In this document: positions 8,956 to 34,841 of the stretch, in pieces
Layout: every line of letters begins with the position of its first letter
How positions within the stretch are numbered: the stretch's first letter is position 1
NCBI RefSeq assembly: GCF_003574315.2
Contig: NZ_AP025739.1
Coordinates: 1,178,001 to 1,242,000, forward strand
Source: Capsulimonas corticalis
GTDB lineage: Bacteria > Armatimonadota > Armatimonadia > Armatimonadales > Capsulimonadaceae
DNA: 64,000 bases
Reading direction: 5' to 3'
Position numbers and translations under genes: made by a program
The notes under the pieces: generated by a model
What the model was told of the DNA's origin: nothing
Database searches by the model: none
The model's input: the letters and a program-made list of their open reading frames with translations, nothing else

Positions 8956-9132
8956 GAGAGGGCGACCACTTCCAAACAATTTTCTGGACTTCACGGGAAT
9001 GGGTGGAGATGAATGAGAGGCGATGGCTTATCAACAAAATGAGGCCCAGGGAAATACCCATTCCCCGGGCCATCGGTTTTTCCGCCACTTCGGCAGGCCA
9101 CCACGTTTAAGCGCGCGGTTCATTCATTAGAT

Positions 9133-9201
9133 CGCCGTGTTTTACTGTTAAACTACCCTTGCATATGGAGCAAGGGAGGGGAGATGCGCCCCCATCCGAC
9201 A
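9133..9201 (-). other. Circularly permuted tRNA-like sequence 3
   Basis: Read on the minus strand: anticodon-stem 3' strand TGTCG, a T-arm-like hairpin (GGGGG/CCCCT with a 7-nt loop that lacks the TTC consensus), acceptor 3' strand CCCTTGC, then TCCA, a 3-nt spacer, acceptor 5' strand GCAAGGG (7/7 pairs), TA, D-arm GTTT-AACAGTA-AAAC, and CGGCG which can pair with TGTCG. So all arms of a tRNA can form, but the two halves are in reversed order. The anticodon loop would be formed only after joining the two ends. Discriminator T and the D-arm look glycine-like. The T-loop is degenerate, so it may be a relic. Confidence 0.5.
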
Positions 9202-9250
9202 GATACCGACCACGCGCATTTGATTTGGCCTGCGACGGAGAATACTCAGT

Positions 9251-9477
9251 CTGGAGTAATAATCTCAGCCTGGTGTGGAACGCTCGACGCCTCTACCATG
9301 TTGGGCTACCTCCGCGAACGCGGACGCTGGAGTGCAGCGCCCGACCTATTGGTGCGGAGGGCAGGGCTCGAACCTGCACTATTTTCGAACGCGCCGTAAA
9401 AAAGAGTCTTAGCCTTAGCTTTTACTCACAGAGAGATTGTACCCGGTGAAGTCAACGATCGGGATAAACACGAATAG
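9251..9477. repeat. Direct repeat copy A (contains permuted tRNA-like sequence)
   Basis: About 200 bp that recur at 11538-11733 in the same orientation, with close identity over the outer parts (from CTGGAGTAATAATCTCAG to GGGATAAACACGAATAG). Copy A carries about 30 bp more between the CCA and the acceptor 5' strand. The two copies flank the ECF-sigma/ankyrin gene, so they could be a tandem duplication scar, attachment sites or conserved intron-like flanks. Confidence 0.85.
9283..9389 (-). other. Circularly permuted tRNA-like sequence A
   Basis: On the minus strand the order is TTCGA (possible anticodon-stem 3' strand), variable nucleotides, a canonical T-arm (GCAGG-TTCGAGC-CCTGC), acceptor strand CCTCCGC, ACCA, about 34 nt of spacer, acceptor 5' strand GCGGAGG (perfect 7-bp match), T8-A9, a canonical D-arm (GCCC-AACATGGTAGA-GGC) and TCGAG, which pairs with TTCGA (one wobble). 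No normal-order partner for either half is found nearby. After ring closure and cutting this would give a full cloverleaf. The flanks are repeated at copy B. Confidence 0.6.
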
Positions 9478-11537: not shown

Positions 11538-11733
11538 CTGGAGTAATAATCTCAGTCTGGTGTGGAGCGGACGACGCCTCTACCGTTTTGGGCTATCTCC
11601 GCCTATGGTGCGGAGGGCAGGGCTCGAACCTGCACTATTTTCGAACGCGCCGTAAAAAAGAGTCTTAGCCTTAGCTTTTACTCACAGGGAGATTGTACGC
11701 GGTGAAGTCAATGATCGGGATAAACACGAATAG
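11538..11733. repeat. Direct repeat copy B (contains permuted tRNA-like sequence)
   Basis: Second copy of the repeat at 9251-9477, same orientation, lying just after the ECF-sigma/ankyrin gene. Identity is nearly complete over the T-arm side and the distal flank; the differences cluster in the D-arm/anticodon side and in the missing spacer. Confidence 0.85.
11570..11645 (-). other. Circularly permuted tRNA-like sequence B
   Basis: Same order as copy A on the minus strand: TTCGA, T-arm GCAGG-TTCGAGC-CCTGC, CCTCCGC, ACCA, a 3-nt spacer (TAG), GCGGAGA (6 of 7 acceptor pairs), TA, D-arm GCCC-AAAACGGTAGA-GGC, then TCGTC, which pairs only partly with TTCGA. The short CCA-N3 connector matches that of element 3 (9133-9201), which argues that the permuted order is real and not a chance assembly. 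The weaker pairs suggest this copy is decaying or uses other joining points. Confidence 0.5.
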
Positions 11734-20141: not shown

Positions 20142-20876
20142 TTACGAGAACAAGTAGGCAAAGAGGGCGTCGCCGAGCTTTTTGTCGGGCGCTTCGGTGG
20201 CGTTCGCTTCTTCGCGGGCGAATTTGACTGCTTGCTGGAGCTTCTCGACGCGATCGCCCAGTTCCTTGACGCGGCTGGCGGGCAGCGCGCCGCTGAATTT
20301 GACCGTTTTCCAGTAGCCGACGACGACATCTTCGTGGAAGACTTCGACCTGCGCGGGGTGCTTTTCGGTGGCTTCGGCTTTGACGTGGTTGCGCGGGACC
20401 TTTTTGGTCTTGGCGGTCTGCACGGCTTCGGTCACGAAGGTATCGGAGCCGGCGTCGTAGGACCAGGTCTCGGAGGGATCCAGGGTCGGCAGCTTCTTGA
20501 CGAACGTTCCCAGGTCGACTAACTGCTTCTCCAGGAACAGCAGATAAGTAGAGGGAACATCGGATAAGAGCGTTTTGCCGTCGACGATGACGTCCGCTTT
20601 GGCGACGCAGTTGGCCCAGTCCTTGGTCGCGGTGACATCGAATAGCTTGGTCAGGATCTTCGCCGTATCCTTGATGACCGTGTCCGCCGAGGCCTGCACG
20701 CGGGTAACTTCGGATGGGAACACTTCGCCCTCTTCGTCGCGGGGCTGGTATGTGCGCGAAATGCCCGTCAGCAGGCTCGGCTTTTGAAGTAAGTGGTGCG
20801 CGTCGGTCAGTTCCTGAAACGACTTCGCCTTGACGCCCTTTTCGATGGCGATGATTTGATTGAGTTTTGCTGTCAT
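20142..20876 (-). CDS. Conserved protein of unknown function (actinobacterial DUF7873-like)
   Basis: A 244-aa protein with very regular sequence: MTAKLNQIIAIEKGVKAK, then SFQELTDAHHLLQKP, GISRTYQPRDEEGE, LFDVTATKDWANCVAKADV, YLLFLEKQLVDL, KVPRNHVKAEATEKHPAQVEVF, VGYWKTVKFSGALP and a terminal AVKFAREEANATE. I recall nearly the same blocks in Streptomyces hypothetical proteins (DUF7873), from memory only. The strict conservation suggests an enzyme or phage/defence-linked protein, but no motif betrays its role. AGGAAG precedes ATG 20876; the longer frame upstream is unlikely. No signal peptide or membrane segment. Confidence 0.8.
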   Translation of the reverse strand: MTAKLNQIIAIEKGVKAKSFQELTDAHHLLQKPSLLTGISRTYQPRDEEGEVFPSEVTRVQASADTVIKDTAKILTKLFDVTATKDWANCVAKADVIVDGKTLLSDVPSTYLLFLEKQLVDLGTFVKKLPTLDPSETWSYDAGSDTFVTEAVQTAKTKKVPRNHVKAEATEKHPAQVEVFHEDVVVGYWKTVKFSGALPASRVKELGDRVEKLQQAVKFAREEANATEAPDKKLGDALFAYLFS

Positions 20877-26252: not shown

Positions 26253-26472
26253 TTTTCCGCGCGCAAGTTTCCGGAGCAAATGCGTTCGTCGCAGCGATGG
26301 CGCTCCGCCAGTGAGCTGTTACGCACTCTTTAATGGATGGATGCTCGTGATCCTACCTCCTGGGTTCTTCGCGCCAGCGCCGCTTCACGTCCGCAGGCCC
26401 ACAGCGGGGCCGGAGATACTGTTCCTCTCGTACTGATGTATGTATGCTCCGAAGATCGGGGCGCGCGGAAAA
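26253..26472 (-). ncRNA. Chimeric RNA element with 23S sarcin-ricin loop and L11-binding domain
   Basis: The outer arms form 12 perfect base pairs (TTTTCCGCGCGC at 26461-26472 with GCGCGCGGAAAA at 26253-26264, minus strand). Inside, the hairpin 26411-26451 presents the universal sarcin-ricin sequence AGTACGAGAGGA (26423-26434) on a 9-bp stem. Then comes a GGCCC/GGGCC hairpin, then 26308-26363, read on the minus strand as CCAGGAGGTAGG ... TTAAAGAGTGCGTAACAGC and CACTGG, which is the L11-binding domain of 23S rRNA (about 1051-1108 in E. coli). In the ribosome these two elements together bind translational GTPases. Here they are on one 220-nt RNA and in reversed order. I infer a ribosome mimic or decoy. 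It lies at the 3' end of the tRNA array. Confidence 0.7.
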
Positions 26473-26476
26473 GGGC

Positions 26477-26603
26477 TTGCCTCGCGCAAGTCCGGGAAGC
26501 TGTTGTTCGCACGCAGGATTTGAACCTGTGACCTTTTGCTTATTCGGCAAACGCTCTACCACTGAGCTAGTATGTAAGCTTCCCGCGTCGGGGCGCGAGG
26601 CAA
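26477..26603 (-). ncRNA. tRNA-like structure with extended acceptor stem
   Basis: The core 26505-26576 has a canonical D-arm (GCTC-AGTGGTA-GAGC), anticodon stem TTTGC/GCAAA with loop CGAATAA (G instead of U33) and a T-arm CAGG-TTCAAAT-CCTG, but the acceptor strands TACATAC and GTGCGAA hardly pair and there is no CCA. Instead the molecule continues into an 8-bp stem (GGGAAGCT/AGCTTCCC) and an 11-bp stem (TTGCCTCGCGC/GCGCGAGGCAA). So it is probably not charged; it may be a decoy or a scaffold. It sits 4 nt before the 23S-like RNA. Confidence 0.65.
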
Positions 26604-26624
26604 ATCGTATTCAGTTGTCAAAAA

Positions 26625-26712
26625 TGGCGGAAGGCATAGGATTCGAACCCAACTCCTTGCGGAGCGCAATGTTTAGCGGACATGCCGTCGGACCCGCCGA
26701 CGCTTACCTTCC
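26625..26712 (-). tRNA. tRNA-Ser(GCT)
   Basis: Class II tRNA: acceptor GGAAGGT/GCCTTCC, discriminator G, encoded CCA, long variable arm, T-loop TTCGAAT. The anticodon loop reads CCGCTAA, so position 33 is C instead of the usual U. Confidence 0.8.
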
Positions 26713-27187: not shown

Positions 27188-27207
27188 TTATATGTATTGT
27201 CAAAAGT

Positions 27208-27297
27208 TGGCGGAAGACACAGGATTCGAACCTGACTCCATTACGGAGCGCAATCTTTTCGAGGGATGCCGCCGGACCCGCCGGGCGCTTGTCTTCC
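27208..27297 (-). tRNA. tRNA-Ser(CGA)
   Basis: Class II tRNA with acceptor GGAAGAC/GTCTTCC, discriminator G, encoded CCA, loop CTCGAAA (anticodon CGA), T-loop TTCGAAT. The anticodon stem is weak (one mismatch next to the loop). Confidence 0.85.
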
Positions 27298-27319
27298 GTT
27301 TTGTGTATTTCCTCTCAAG

Positions 27320-28268: not shown

Positions 28269-28279
28269 ATATCAGAACA

Positions 28280-28368
28280 TGGCGGAAGGCGTAGGATTCG
28301 AACCCAACTCCTCACGGAGCGCATTTCTTTCCAAGAAAGCCGCCGGACCCGCCGAGCGCTCACCTTCC
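28280..28368 (-). tRNA. tRNA-Ser(GGA)
   Basis: Class II tRNA with acceptor GGAAGGT/GCCTTCC, discriminator G, encoded CCA, loop TTGGAAA (anticodon GGA), T-loop TTCGAAT. It completes a set of four serine isoacceptors in this array. Confidence 0.85.
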
Positions 28369-29446: not shown

Positions 29447-29497
29447 CACCCCTCTCCCAATTTTGGGAGAGGGGCCGGGGGTGAGGGCCTCGGCCCT
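29447..29497. repeat. REP-like palindromic repeat (short form)
   Basis: CCCCTCTCCCAATTTTGGGAGAGGGG hairpin core followed by CCGGGGGTGAGGGCCT, as in the other two copies in the array. It lies immediately after the rtcB stop and may act as its 3' hairpin. Confidence 0.75.
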
Positions 29498-30276
29498 CAG
29501 TCCTTGTAAGGATCGAACTCGTTCTCGCCGGCCATCGCCACGCCGAGGGGCGTGAGGGTGTGCAAAATCTTGATCGAGTTCTTGTGGTGCTCCAGCACCT
29601 CCGGGAGACGCTTGTAGCAGTGCGGCGACTCATCCGTGCCCGCGCCGCGCAGCTCCACGCGCTCTTTCTGGACCCATTCGCGCATCATCTCCTTGGAGAC
29701 GACGCCCGGTTTGATCACTTCTCCCGTACGCCGGTTGACTTTGCCGCGCGCGGCGGTCCGGCTCATCACACGGCCCGCGCCGTGGACGGTGGAGTAAAGC
29801 GACTGACTCGCTTCCTCCGATTCGACTCCTTCGAGAATGACGGACTTGTCGCCCATTGAGCCTCCGACAAATCCCTTCTGACCTGGAAAGGCCGGGGTGG
29901 CGCCCTTGCGAACGACCCAGAGATCACGGCCGCCGTGGCTCTCCTTCCACGCGTAGTTATGGTGATTGTGAATCTCCTCCACAATCTTCGCGCCCAGGAG
30001 ACGCGCCACTTCCGCGCAGACCCAGTCCCGTCCAGCGTAGGCATACCGGCCCGCTAGAGTCATACAGGCGAGATAATCGGCTCCCAGGGAGGAACGGACA
30101 TGCAGCACCAAAGGGTCTACATCCATTCCGTCCTGCGCGCCGCCCGCATTCAAAAAGTAAGTCGCCGTCTTATGTCCCAGACCCCGCGATCCAAAGTGGA
30201 CTCCCACCCAGACCCGGTCCTTCTCGTCGGCGAAGTAGGGTGGAATGCTGGCGAGGTGGCATTCCTGCTCCTTTTC
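29497..30276 (-). CDS. rtcB: RtcB RNA ligase, C-terminal exon
   Basis: About 259 codons that continue rtcB after the group II intron. They begin near EKEQECHLASIPPYFADEKDRVW, then VGVHFGSRGLGHKTA (metal-binding His in HFGSRGLGH), NHHNYAWKES, KGATPAFPGQKGFVGGSMGDKSVILEG, and SLYSTVHGAGRVMSRTAARG, which holds the histidine that is guanylylated. So both GTP- and Mn-binding motifs are intact. Together with the exon at 32657-33094 the product has about 405 aa, a normal RtcB size. RtcB joins 2',3'-cyclic phosphate (or 3'-phosphate) to 5'-OH ends, as in tRNA splicing and RNA repair. The exon border is set by reading frame and may be off by one codon. The frame shown upstream of 30276 is intron sequence. 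Confidence 0.88.
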   Translation of the reverse strand, partial: EKEQECHLASIPPYFADEKDRVWVGVHFGSRGLGHKTATYFLNAGGAQDGMDVDPLVLHVRSSLGADYLACMTLAGRYAYAGRDWVCAEVARLLGAKIVEEIHNHHNYAWKESHGGRDLWVVRKGATPAFPGQKGFVGGSMGDKSVILEGVESEEASQSLYSTVHGAGRVMSRTAARGKVNRRTGEVIKPGVVSKEMMREWVQKERVELRGAGTDESPHCYKRLPEVLEHHKNSIKILHTLTPLGVAMAGENEFDPYKD

Positions 30277-30291
30277 CAACAAGCCCCCTCC

Positions 30292-30325
30292 GAACCGTGC
30301 TGGATACTTTCGCATCACACGGCTC
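30292..30325 (-). ncRNA. Group II intron domain V
   Basis: 34-nt hairpin with outer stem GAGCCGTG/CACGGTTC, a bulge and a GAAA-type tetraloop (TGCGAAAGTA). This is the catalytic core hairpin of group II introns and lies just upstream of the 3' splice site. Confidence 0.88.
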
Positions 30326-30334
30326 TCCAGTAAC

Positions 30335-32125
30335 CTATGTCTTTGACTGCGCACGAATGGGTTTCCCGTACTGGATATCATCATGGCATTTCTGGCACAC
30401 GACCAAGGTTTTCCGCTTACGGGCTGCCATTATTTGCATCCAAAGCGGTTTCTCCTTTTGTCCCTTTACCTTGAGGTCTGCAAGTTTACGGATGTGGTGG
30501 ACTTCCACTTTCTCCGCAGATTCACATATCTCGCACTTGTCCGCAAGTAGTCGTTTTACCAACTCCGTGCGTTTCGGCACATAGGCATGGGTCGTTTGAT
30601 CGTAGATTGTTGCTCCCGCTGCTTGTCTCAGGGCCAGTCCGCCGAAGTGGACTTCCAGAGGCGTTTTACCTTCTCTTGGTACGATGCACTGGATCACTTT
30701 TCGTGGTCCGTGCTCCGTATCGATGGTTGCAATGTATCGTTGAGCAATCGCATTTACCGTCGCCTTGTGCTTGTGGGCCAAGGTCTTCAGTAGAGACGTG
30801 TGCATATACCAATACAGTCTTTGCAGCCATGCGATGTTTTCCGCCAGTTGGTAATACTGTACATATCCCCGATACTCACTTTGATAGTCAGAGATGATTG
30901 TGAAGTCATCATCGTTGACCCTCTCTGCGCGATGAATCGGTTTGCCGTTCTTGGCGTACAGGCTGCATCTGTCGTTTATCACATCGACAGGGACTAGTAG
31001 TCCGATTCGGGATGACATCGTTCGACGGCTGGTGCTATCGTGTTTGTCATTTACCTGTCGGCCTGCTATTTCATAGCCGAGGAACCTTGCCCGTCCTGTT
31101 TGAGTGTGCGTAACCAGTGTCTTTTCCTCAGAGAGTTCCAGACGCAGTTTTTCGTTGAGAAAACTCTTGAGGCGCTGCTTGATTTCTTCGGCTTCTTCCT
31201 GTGGCCCCGCGAAGCCAAGAATGAAGTCATCTGCGTATCGAATATAGCGTAGCCTCCGATAGTTTGGGTCATATTGATCCGTTGATGGTAGCTTCTGATA
31301 CTGATGAAACAGCTCAGATGCTCCGTGACGGTCTCCATTAGCCCGTAACGTTTCGGCGCGTCCCGCGAGACGATTGTACTCAGGGTTCTTCCTTCGTTTG
31401 TTTCCACGGTTGTATTCCTGGAGTAATGTTGCTTCTACAAACTTGTCCAGTTGATCCAGGTATATGTTGGCGAGTATGGGACTAATAACCCCACCTTGCG
31501 GTGTGCCGCTCAGCGTCGGGTTGTAATGCCATCTCTCCATATATCCTGCCTGTAGCAGTCCCTCAACGAGTTTGATGAAACGGTTATCATGGATGTCTTT
31601 CTTCAGCACCTCCAGCAGAATCTGATGGTTGATGTTGTCGAAGCATCCTTTGATGTCCCCTTCCACGAACCATTTGGTGCCCACCCACGTTCTTGCGATT
31701 GCGGTGAGTGCCGTATGGCATCCTCGTTTCGGACGGAAGCCGTGTGAATGGTTGGAGAACTGCGGTTCGTAGTATGCTTCCAATATAGAGCGCATAACTT
31801 CTTGCAGCAATTTATCCGTCCATGTCGGGATGCCGAGAGGTCGTGTTTTCCCATTTTTCTTTGGGATATGCGTCCGTCTCACGGGTGTCCAACGATATCT
31901 TTCGTATCGAAGGTCTTCGATGATGGCATTGATTCTTGCCATCGACATTCCGTCTACAGTGTCTTCCGTCGTTCCTGGGGTCATGGCTCCATCATTGCGA
32001 TAGATTCTGCCATAGGCCCGTAGGTACAGGTCTGGATTGTATAGCTGTCTGTAGACATCCTCCAGTGGCAACTTTCGTTGGCCTCTGTCTCTGATAATGT
32101 TCAACACATCTTCGGCTGTTCGCAT
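30335..32125 (-). CDS. ltrA: Group II intron reverse transcriptase/maturase with HNH domain
   Basis: A 596-aa intron-encoded protein. Reverse transcriptase blocks run from about residue 85 (RRTHIPKKNGKTRPLGIPTWTDKLLQ) through HGFRPKRGCHTAL, EGDIKGCFDNINH, GTPQGGVISPILANIYLD and the active site IRYADDFILGF near 300. A maturase/thumb region follows (SEYRGYVQYYQLAENIAWLQRLYWYMHTSLLKTLAHKHK), then a C-terminal HNH endonuclease (CEICESAEKVEVHHIRKLADL ... CQKCHDDI) with two Cys pairs. All key residues are present, so retrohoming looks possible. GAGG lies 8 nt before ATG 32125. Inserted within rtcB. Confidence 0.95.
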   Translation of the reverse strand: MRTAEDVLNIIRDRGQRKLPLEDVYRQLYNPDLYLRAYGRIYRNDGAMTPGTTEDTVDGMSMARINAIIEDLRYERYRWTPVRRTHIPKKNGKTRPLGIPTWTDKLLQEVMRSILEAYYEPQFSNHSHGFRPKRGCHTALTAIARTWVGTKWFVEGDIKGCFDNINHQILLEVLKKDIHDNRFIKLVEGLLQAGYMERWHYNPTLSGTPQGGVISPILANIYLDQLDKFVEATLLQEYNRGNKRRKNPEYNRLAGRAETLRANGDRHGASELFHQYQKLPSTDQYDPNYRRLRYIRYADDFILGFAGPQEEAEEIKQRLKSFLNEKLRLELSEEKTLVTHTQTGRARFLGYEIAGRQVNDKHDSTSRRTMSSRIGLLVPVDVINDRCSLYAKNGKPIHRAERVNDDDFTIISDYQSEYRGYVQYYQLAENIAWLQRLYWYMHTSLLKTLAHKHKATVNAIAQRYIATIDTEHGPRKVIQCIVPREGKTPLEVHFGGLALRQAAGATIYDQTTHAYVPKRTELVKRLLADKCEICESAEKVEVHHIRKLADLKVKGQKEKPLWMQIMAARKRKTLVVCQKCHDDIQYGKPIRAQSKT

Positions 32126-32656
32126 CCCGCGTACCTCTGTGCATTGCCCATTAGGTTACCTGTTCCCCTTTGCCCTGTGAACGGCTTTCCCGCTCTCCCT
32201 GGTAGGTCGTCACTCCTACGACTACTATGGGAACTCCGTGGCCATAGGAGTCGCCTCCCGTAGGCCATCCTGCGTTCCGTCAACATACTACGTAATAGCG
32301 CGATTTAGGTGTCCGTTCGCTCTCTTGCGTGGGATCATTTCCCACATCTTCTGCTCTACGGAGATTGCGATTGCCGACATTTTAAGCATTCGCATAGAGC
32401 ATCAGTGACTACAGGCGTTGTATCACAGGGCCTACGTATAGACCACCGAGAGCTGGATTTCGAGCAGTATAGCCCTAACCATGTCGCGCGGGCTTTGCAG
32501 AACAACAGCGCAAACGCCTTCTTCTGTTTTCCGCTTTCCCAACAGGCTGTGTTGGCTGATCCGCTTTCGCAGATCAGTTGGTTGGGTAGCCCCGACACTT
32601 TTCTCCGAGTATCGGCTGGCTCAGCCAGCAATAGTATGCTGCATTACGCAGCGCCC

Positions 32657-33094
32657 CAGGTCCACATAGTGGTTTCCCGAACCGATCGTTCCCAGCTGGT
32701 TCCGGGCGGTCTGCTTGAGGGTCTTGACGGCGTGCAGCTTCCACGTTTCGTCGTCAAACAGCTCATGGTCCACGGAGGTCGCGTTGTTGCGGCCTACGCC
32801 GAACGACAAATTGCTCCACACCATATCCATGATCTGTCTGATCTTCCGGCGAACCTCGCTTGCCGGAATGTCCAGACGCGCGGCTTTGTTGCCGCAGCCA
32901 ATGTCAAAACCCACCCCGGACGGGCTGATCTTATCCTCGTAGGCGACCACGCCGCCGATGGGAACCGCGTAGCCCTTGTGATGGTCCGCCATCAGCGCCA
33001 CGTGAGCCGCATCTTTTGAACAGTTCATAATTTGCAGCATCGCGCCTTCGTCGACAGGGTCTCCCCACACCGGTACTCCCGCAATCATTTCCAT
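32657..33094 (-). CDS. rtcB: RtcB RNA ligase, N-terminal exon
   Basis: 146 codons starting MEMIAGVPVWGDPVDEGAMLQI, with LMADHHKGYAVPIGGVVAYEDKISPSGVGFDIGCGNKAARL, where the conserved Cys of the Mn site lies in FDIGCGN, and ending GTIGSGNHYVDL at the intron border. AAAGGAGG lies about 7 nt before ATG 33094. Without splicing the frame would run into intron codons and stop soon after. The gene reads in the array direction, between tRNA-Gly and tRNA-Val(GAC), next to an RNA ligase gene, which points to a role in repair or maturation of the tRNAs here. Confidence 0.88.
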
Positions 33095-33824: not shown

Positions 33825-34841
33825 TCACACGTCCCGACTATCCGTCACGTTTTTCGCGAACAAGTACGGGTCTCCGATGTACTTCATGCAGACACGACCG
33901 ACTTTCGGGTCGCGCCGCTCCGCGATCGGCTTCACCACGACGCCTTCGCGGATGTGCTCCGCGCCGAGGGTGGTGTTTCCCTCGGAGAGCGCCTTGATGA
34001 TTCCCAGCGCGTACGGCCCTTCGTAGAGGACCGGGACCATTGCGACGCCGAAGCTCGCGCAGACTTGCCGGAACTCAAACGCATTCAGATAGTGACCGTC
34101 GATCATCAGGTCGAAAGCTTGAAACCCGCCGGCGCCCGATGCGCCGTAGTGCAGGCTCTGCACTTTGCTCCCGAAGATCTCGCCGTAGAGAACCACCTGA
34201 CGATGGTCCTGCGCGAAGTGCTCCAGCAGCGAGACGACTTCCGGGATCAGCGCGGGCGCCCAGTAGACGCTGTGCGCCAGATTTTCCGGACGCTCGCGGC
34301 GCACTTGCCGGGAGCCGGCCATCCACTCGCCCTCAACGATGCCGATACGCGAGTTGGTCCCATGGATCTTCTCCGTCACCACCACGTCCTCGCCGGCGGC
34401 CAGAACGTCCGGGTAGTTGCGCAGGTTCTCGACATCCGTGTACTCCTCAAAGAGAGGATGCGGCGCTAGCGCGTCGGTCCTCTGCGCCCAGAAGCTCACC
34501 GGCGGCTCGTACTTGGTGACGCCGTAGTGCTCCGCGACGTCGGTCCCGAGCTCCCAGCGAGGGTCCTCCCGCTCGACGATCACGCCGAAGCTCGGCTCAC
34601 TGCGAAGACGGGCGCACCGAACGCGGCCTTTGCTCAGATACTGGGTGATTCCCCAGCGATCCGAGTGCTCCGCCGGGATCATGGCGTCGATGGGAATATA
34701 GGTCACTAAATCCCCCGCCGCGTATTTGCCCTTCGGAACCACGCACTGCCATCCTTTGATCTGCGCCAGCTCCAGCGCATCAGCGTTGTGATGCGGGCTG
34801 ACTTCATCGATCTCGCAAACTTCAACAACTAAAGTGGACAT
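33825..34841 (-). CDS. RNA ligase, DRB0094/Rnl5-type
   Basis: A 338-aa ATP-dependent RNA ligase. The N-terminal OB-like part (MSTLVVEVCEIDEVSPHHNADALELAQIKGWQCVVPKGKYAAGDLVTYIPIDAMIP) resembles the DRB0094 family. The adenylation motif is VVTEKIHGTNSRIG (Lys in KIHGTN), motif III-like VVLYGEIFG, motif IV REGVVVKP and motif V CMKYIGDPY. GGAGGACAGGG before ATG 34841 fixes the start; longer frames overlap tRNA genes and are not real. In the array it lies between tRNA-Tyr and tRNA-Pro, in the array direction, near rtcB, so two ligases with different end chemistry are present: 3'-P/5'-OH (RtcB) and, probably, 3'-OH/5'-P (this one). Confidence 0.9.
   Translation of the reverse strand: MSTLVVEVCEIDEVSPHHNADALELAQIKGWQCVVPKGKYAAGDLVTYIPIDAMIPAEHSDRWGITQYLSKGRVRCARLRSEPSFGVIVEREDPRWELGTDVAEHYGVTKYEPPVSFWAQRTDALAPHPLFEEYTDVENLRNYPDVLAAGEDVVVTEKIHGTNSRIGIVEGEWMAGSRQVRRERPENLAHSVYWAPALIPEVVSLLEHFAQDHRQVVLYGEIFGSKVQSLHYGASGAGGFQAFDLMIDGHYLNAFEFRQVCASFGVAMVPVLYEGPYALGIIKALSEGNTTLGAEHIREGVVVKPIAERRDPKVGRVCMKYIGDPYLFAKNVTDSRDV

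Follow-up and report, generated by a model that had tools for sequence, protein, structure and literature searches.

A permuted tRNA-like module in Capsulimonas corticalis within a candidate two-module non-coding RNA linked to DUF7873

The 64,000-nt stretch of the Capsulimonas corticalis genome analysed here (positions 1,178,001 to 1,242,000 of contig NZ_AP025739.1; hereafter, the window) carries on its minus strand a sequence in which the two halves of a tRNA occur in reversed order (Table 1). Along that strand, a flank-stem strand is followed by a T-arm, an acceptor 3' strand ending in ACCA, a 38-nt loop, the acceptor 5' strand, a D-arm and the second flank-stem strand. The initial annotation had described this order, with the T-arm, acceptor 3' strand and CCA preceding the acceptor 5' strand and D-arm, as well as a fully paired acceptor stem, TA at positions 8-9 and GG in the D-loop, and all these features are present in the sequence, denoted module 1 of copy A. 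A truncated duplicate, copy B, retains the same order (T-arm at 11617-11633, then the acceptor, and the D-arm to 11576), with a 7-nt acceptor loop, 6 of 7 acceptor pairs and a broken flank stem, and has neither the second domain described below nor a terminator. The 7.6-Mb genome holds no copies besides A and B, and no normal-order partner was found there for either half, the finding that the initial annotation had named as speaking against permutation. The window also contains a gene for a DUF7873 protein, Y-RNA-like elements, genes for two RNA ligases and an array of tRNA genes.

Table 1. Positions of the features discussed (window numbering)
Feature	Position	Strand	Remarks
Full-length DUF7873-associated RNA, copy A, ~400 nt	9043-9441	minus	homologous layout in relatives
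Promoter-like -10, TACAAT	9436-9441	minus	TATACT at the same place in relatives
Permuted tRNA-like module 1, copy A	9281-9389	minus	Rfam YrlA 18.7 bits; R1 24.2 bits
Module 1 flank, TTCGA	9389-9385	minus	then AAATAGT
Module 1 T-arm, GCAGG-TTCGAGC-CCTGC	9377-9361	minus	
Module 1 acceptor 3' strand, CCTCCGC + ACCA	9360-9350	minus	then 34 more loop bases
Module 1 acceptor 5' strand, GCGGAGG	9315-9309	minus	7/7 paired; then TA
Module 1 D-arm, GCCCAACATGGTAGAGGC	9306-9289	minus	GG in D-loop; then G
Module 1 flank, TCGAG	9287-9283	minus	could pair with TTCGA as an anticodon-type stem
Conserved linker, CTGAGATTATTACTCCAGACTGAG	9240-9268	minus	family consensus AGnyTnAG..TTATYGCTCYAGnCTnAGCA
Second domain: permuted module 2 within two long-range helices	9095-9233	minus	model R1
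Module 2 proper	9139-9193	minus	T-arm stem kept; T-loop CGCATCT degenerate
CTTAAACGTG, most conserved single-stranded motif of the family	9102-9111	minus	
Intrinsic terminator	9043-9071	minus	loop GGGTAT, matching the GGATAT-type loop of the family
Copy B, truncated duplicate of module 1	11538-11697	minus	R1 25.2 bits, module only
DUF7873 (PF25283) protein gene	20142-20870	minus	only copy in the genome
Y-RNA-like scaffold element	26261-26464	minus	insert: 23S sarcin-ricin loop and GTPase-centre sequence
Y-RNA-like scaffold element	26484-26596	minus	insert: normal-order tRNA without acceptor stem
Repeated Ser-like tRNA sequences, long variable arms	26621-26700, 27200-27299, 28276-28355	minus	no ARAGORN call
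Split RtcB gene	29497-33094	minus	N-terminal part 33094-32621, C-terminal part 30384-29497
RNA ligase, PF09414 + PHA02142 OB domain, DRB0094-like	33825-34841	minus	

RNA folding recovered the acceptor, T and flank stems of module 1 (-52.8 kcal/mol, z -2.9), and its energy was equalled in 1 of 200 shuffles. Of 390 shuffled stretches of 650 nt, a strict motif scan detected a permuted module in 5 and two together in none. Given these shuffles and the compensatory changes seen in homologues (see below), the presence of a permuted tRNA-like module at this locus, beyond chance, is confirmed.

Relatives of copies A and B were sought by BLAST in 201 Armatimonadota genomes and were found in other families of the phylum. 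Their acceptor strands differ and yet pair (CCTCCGC/GCGGAGG, CCCCGCC/GGCGGGG, CCCCACC/GGTGGGG and CCCCTGC/GCAGGGG). Every such relative extends into another permuted module, with a TTAAACG motif and a terminator as well, and one conserved protein gene lies upstream, encoding the Pfam family DUF7873 (PF25283; E = 3e-117). The layout of copy A was compared with that in 6 other Armatimonadota genomes, in Streptomyces and Nonomuraea and at tens of phage loci; the ends of the RNA were inferred from the -10 element at the 5' side, upstream of which the promoter scan found no -35 match, and from a terminator scan at the 3' side. The 5' part and the linker of the DUF7873-associated RNAs contain recurrent ACTNA/CTNAG units at ~6-nt spacing, e.g., CAGACTCAGACTCAGACTC.

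DUF7873 was found in 72 phage records, including those of Vibrio, Gordonia, Rhizobium, Klebsiella and Arthrobacter phages and cyanophages; all the listed proteins are hypothetical where annotated. Relatives were confirmed on 243 stretches in IMG/VR and in 7 of 291 Armatimonadota genomes. In the 650 nt downstream of the gene at 78 distinct phage loci, the strict scan detected at least one permuted module at 69 (two at 44 and one at 25) and none at the remaining 9; in the controls, modules were found in 1 of 78 reverse strands, 5 of 390 shuffles and 10 of 78 upstream regions, the last probably from tandem tRNAs. Because pairing of the acceptor and T stems was required by this search, it does not count as independent evidence, and independent support comes only from the controls and the long-range helices. 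Module 1 usually starts 50-190 nt after the DUF7873 stop codon, on the same strand, and most of the nine phage loci inspected show a gap without explanation downstream of the gene. Annotation pipelines misname this RNA: part of it, in the gap at one of these loci, is annotated as tRNA-Stop(tta) in the record of Klebsiella phage LPKP23 (4013-4096), and ARAGORN called one phage copy (L146) a permuted tmRNA.

To model the second domain, we built a covariance model, R1, on nine sequences from outside the window, eight of them from phages and one from Armatimonadota. Full-length matches above 70 bits were obtained in 7 of 151 Armatimonadota genomes, exactly the seven that encode DUF7873, and the next score was 49; the same gene-RNA pair was found in Streptomyces and Nonomuraea replicons (108-117 bits). 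RtcB is encoded within 3 kb of only 1 of 89 DUF7873 loci, an RNA ligase near none of the 89, and tRNA genes near 48. The RNA, found mostly in tRNA-rich bacterial viruses, is tied to DUF7873 and not to RNA ligases. The initial annotation had pointed to two ligases in this segment as a means of joining tRNA ends; RtcB and the DRB0094-like ligase are indeed in the window, but the phage loci show no such link.

The long-range helices were assessed on 32 aligned RNAs. The inner helix, of 9 bp around module 2, is 84% paired, compared with 48% for shuffled partners (maximum 58%), with compensatory changes at 9 of 9 pairs; the outer helix, of 5 bp, is 89% paired, compared with 62% (maximum 70%), with such changes at 5 of 5. 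RNAalifold on 9 sequences gave 33 pairs, 29 with double changes. The loop between the two helices is nearly invariant (AAUCGA on one side and UUAAACG on the other). The flanks of module 1 form their best stem when the spacing is the canonical one, exactly one base (26) and a 5-nt variable region, with pairing of 59% against 40% (maximum 53.5%); U48 is present in 38 of 40 sequences. Beyond their stems, the modules resemble tRNAs in carrying TA or TG at positions 8-9, a TTCGANT T-loop and GG in the D-loop. N73-C74-Y75 follows each acceptor, with C74 in 32 and 34 of 40 and Y75 (C or T) in 37 and 39 of 40 sequences for the two modules. The encoded CCA, which the initial annotation had read as a hallmark of tRNA, varies in the family (ACCA, ACTC, ACTT, ATCT, etc.), with C74 and Y75 mostly kept. 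A long-range stem, CAAUCUC/GAGAUU, obtained by folding copy A alone, was not recovered by the family alignment and was dropped.

Copy A conforms to this family. Its second domain fits R1 over all model positions (1-143 of 143; 89.8 bits, E = 9.5e-22), both long-range helices are kept (GCAGGCC/GGCCTGC and GCGCGTGG/CCGCGCGC), as are TTAAACG and the terminator, and the internal loop reads AAATCAA / CTTAAACG. Two permuted modules are present, the second with acceptor CCCTTGC-TCCATAT-GCAAGGG and D-arm GTTTAACAGTAAAAC, but its T-loop has lost TTCRA. The T-arms of the two modules start at 9377 and 9193, that is, 184 nt apart compared with ~150 nt typically in the family; this wider spacing goes along with the acceptor loop of module 1, grown to 38 nt. 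Furthermore, DUF7873 does not lie directly upstream of copy A, as it does in the 6 other Armatimonadota genomes, but is displaced by ~8 kb, ~10.7 kb from copy A on the same strand, and three plus-strand genes (peroxidase, GH31 and Kelch) separate it from copy B. The gene itself is intact, its product being 72% identical to a relative. Given the ~8-kb separation, the lost T-loop motif and the long acceptor loop, the local system may be drifting and decaying.

The AlphaFold2 model of DUF7873 has a mean pLDDT of 93, and a Foldseek search against PDB and BFVD gave no match below E 0.001, so that binding of RNA by this protein is proposed from the linkage only. No relevant paper on DUF7873 was found in the searchable, largely open-access literature. 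The associated RNA is absent from Rfam 15, where its nearest entry, the YrlA Y RNA, scores far below cut-off, and the same literature yielded nothing relevant on RNAs that carry two tRNA-like domains. Judged against Rfam 15, Pfam and the searchable literature, the RNA is thus previously unlisted, and a Pfam family with no assigned function gains an RNA partner.

Comparison across these genomes shows co-inheritance of the gene and the RNA, two permuted tRNA-like modules and a covarying scaffold, each module being joined to the rest of the RNA at the position of a tRNA's anticodon stem. We are highly confident that module 1 belongs to a structured non-coding RNA of ~400 nt, and consider it likely that this RNA is the partner of DUF7873. 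In the proposed mechanism, the RNA would fold into two L-shaped tRNA mimics on one scaffold, and DUF7873 would bind it to form an RNA-protein particle. RNase P, reading N73-C74-Y75 beside the acceptor stem, would open the acceptor loops, nicking the RNA and giving it 3' ends like those of tRNAs, in the manner of two-piece tmRNA. During infection or under translation stress, the particle could then occupy or redirect factors that handle tRNAs (RNase P, the CCA enzyme, EF-Tu or the ribosome). Two G residues of bacterial RNase P RNA pair with substrate positions 74 and 75, C or U being acceptable at 75, and it is for this reason that cleavage at both acceptor stems is proposed. From the sequence pattern, we would give such processing an even chance; N73-C74-Y75 could instead be a leftover of tRNA ancestry. 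The suggested action on tRNA-handling factors is more tentative and, taken alone, doubtful. A bolder version, in which RNase P cuts the RNA into three pieces with two chargeable CCA ends that DUF7873 delivers to the ribosome or another factor, would amount to a novel ribonucleoprotein class, employed by tRNA-rich phages and retained in some bacteria, but appears rather improbable. The pair is widespread (IMG/VR, phage records, Armatimonadota and Streptomyces), and its carriers include the isolated phages Arthrobacter Racecar and Gordonia Phendrix as well as Streptomyces, making direct testing possible.

As to function, we infer that mimicry aimed at the translation or tRNA-processing machinery ranks first and bait against tRNA-directed nucleases second. 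As bait, the modules would attract defence nucleases or toxins that strike the tRNA elbow or acceptor end, with DUF7873 stabilising the RNA, and would thereby protect phage or cell tRNAs. The mostly phage-borne occurrence, the frequent proximity of tRNA genes and the near-perfect match of the modules to the surface of a tRNA lacking its anticodon loop would all fit. However, no matching nuclease was identified, the common anticodon nucleases could not be baited by modules that lack an anticodon loop, and the conserved non-tRNA parts would be left to another explanation, so we regard this reading as improbable.

Similarly improbable is that copy A is a Y RNA of the YrlA type, i.e., a tRNA-like effector domain on a Ro60-bound stem. 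The Rfam model of YrlA (RF02553) aligns to module 1 in the same order (E 0.33) and, with 24-28 bits, to both modules of the Streptomyces RNAs, and the genome does encode a protein with the Ro60 fold. Every score is, however, far under the gathering score of 69, and the Ro-site bases (5' CYRA and 3' ACUUG), present in YrlA and in other Y RNAs of this genome, are absent from copies A and B on inspection. No Ro gene lies within 3 kb of any of the 89 DUF7873 loci, and the Ro60-like gene of this genome is ~270 kb away. In its three-dimensional topology YrlA is a circularly permuted tRNA (PMC11472068); its binding partners are Ro60/Rsr and PNPase, and tRNA-modifying enzymes act on it (PMC8394870). 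YrlA (Salmonella YrlA, PDB 6CU1) shares with the modules the T-arm, closed acceptor, D-arm and attachment at the anticodon-stem position, but has one module, a Ro60-binding stem and an rsr neighbour, whereas the RNA described here has two modules, no Ro motif, a DUF7873 neighbour and extra conserved helices and loop. The initial annotation, which named permuted two-piece tmRNAs as the only case known in bacteria, passed over these Y RNAs (PMC11472068, PMC8394870); with the DUF7873-associated RNA, permuted tRNA mimicry in bacteria extends beyond Ro60-bound Y RNAs.

Elsewhere in this genome, at 1.459-1.461 Mb, the YrlA model scores higher (43 and 31 bits). These matches belong to a set of four RNAs (1458.5-1460.8 kb) built on a constant frame, GCGCCCYRAY-N7-GCWTACATAC-insert-GC-N7-ACTTGCGC, which is similar to the stem by which Y RNAs bind Ro (YrlA consensus CgaA, AcUuG) and was found in 104 genome stretches, mainly of cyanobacteria; at 90 of 126 frame loci, this genome included, there is a gene whose product is 47-73% identical to the protein beside the four elements. 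That protein is Ro60 by fold, its 13 best PDB matches being Ro60/Rsr/TROVE with probability 1.00; searching the genome with Pfam TROVE missed it, and this divergent Ro60 was recognised from its neighbourhood and fold instead. Among the inserts of 270 elements, roughly sorted, 116 are tRNAs in normal order that open at the acceptor stem and at least 30 are permuted tRNAs that open at the anticodon; 23S sarcin-ricin loop plus GTPase-centre sequence occurs in 7, and sequence of 23S helix 68-71 in 3. The rRNA assignments were made by eye, except for the Rfam LSU match at 26286-26383. These elements form a widespread Ro60-linked Y RNA family whose inserts mimic tRNAs, normal or permuted, and pieces of 23S rRNA. 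The tRNA-Ile (AAT) called by ARAGORN at 26505-26576 is the insert of one of the two elements in the window.

In permuted two-piece tmRNA (ssrA), processing removes the loop that closes the acceptor stem. Descent of the present RNA from such a tmRNA, or identity with one, would account for the acceptor loop that interrupts a tRNA-like domain and for the permuted tmRNA call on one phage copy. That call was, however, the sole one among the scanned loci, and no Rfam tmRNA match was found in the window or in the Streptomyces RNAs. Two-piece tmRNA has one tRNA-like domain without a D-stem, a tag-coding part and SmpB as partner, none of which was found here: the modules number two, each has a full D-stem and GG in the D-loop, and no reading frame is apparent by eye in the conserved parts. 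We consider a tmRNA origin very unlikely.

The known maturation of permuted tRNAs requires a bulge-helix-bulge motif and the tRNA-splicing endonuclease, a route not known in bacteria. The initial annotation had interpreted module 1 as a circularly permuted tRNA-like gene that would need end joining to make a tRNA. On this reading, RtcB or the other RNA ligase would join the ends in the anticodon loop, and the acceptor loop would be removed to yield a working tRNA. The seven acceptor pairs, ACCA, the canonical tertiary bases and the two ligases of the window are in its favour, as is precedent: permuted tRNA genes of red and green algae and Crenarchaea likewise have the 3' half before the 5' half with an intervening acceptor loop (PMC3978253). 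Those genes, however, have a complete anticodon loop, a bulge-helix-bulge junction and a tRNA product. Here, no 7-nt loop forms at a defined joint, nor does it in the relatives, and the flanks TTCGA/TCGAG run into GGCGCG / CGTTCCACACC and the conserved helices of a larger RNA. The occurrence of two modules in one RNA, the inconstant CCA and the strict linkage to DUF7873 instead of ligases also weigh against it, and the YrlA alignment, with the same order and a circularly permuted tRNA, renders a permuted tRNA gene unneeded as an explanation. Because its flanks belong to a different fold and yield no anticodon loop, module 1 very probably does not encode a functional tRNA, and end joining is most improbable. 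For permuted 'tRNAs' in bacterial sequence, membership of a larger RNA is the first thing to test.

A chance arrangement or a degenerate remnant of tandemly duplicated tRNA genes, suggested by weak YrlA and R1 matches to tandem tRNAs, the truncation of copy B and the degenerate T-loop of module 2, is equally improbable and, for the family, largely refuted by conservation across phyla, covariation, the fixed gene neighbour and the second domain of copy A (E about 1e-21). Tandem tRNA pairs mimic the permuted order by placing the 3' half of one tRNA before the 5' half of the next, and such matches (at 596 kb, at 2,597 kb and in two further stretches, L148 and L157) were rejected as ordinary tRNAs.

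GOLLD and ROOL are long structured non-coding RNAs next to the tRNA arrays of tRNA-rich phages. The DUF7873-associated RNA is likewise structured and found beside phage tRNA arrays; no Rfam match to either was obtained with the window or the Streptomyces RNAs. Of the ligase genes in the window, RtcB is interrupted by a group II intron with its reverse transcriptase (30235-32125), and the DRB0094-like ligase lies inside an array of ~17 tRNA genes (26.5-35.2 kb), analogous to the stress-induced tRNA operon of Anabaena that is co-regulated with rtcB (PMC10272220). The repeated Ser-like sequences are apparently degenerate members of this array.
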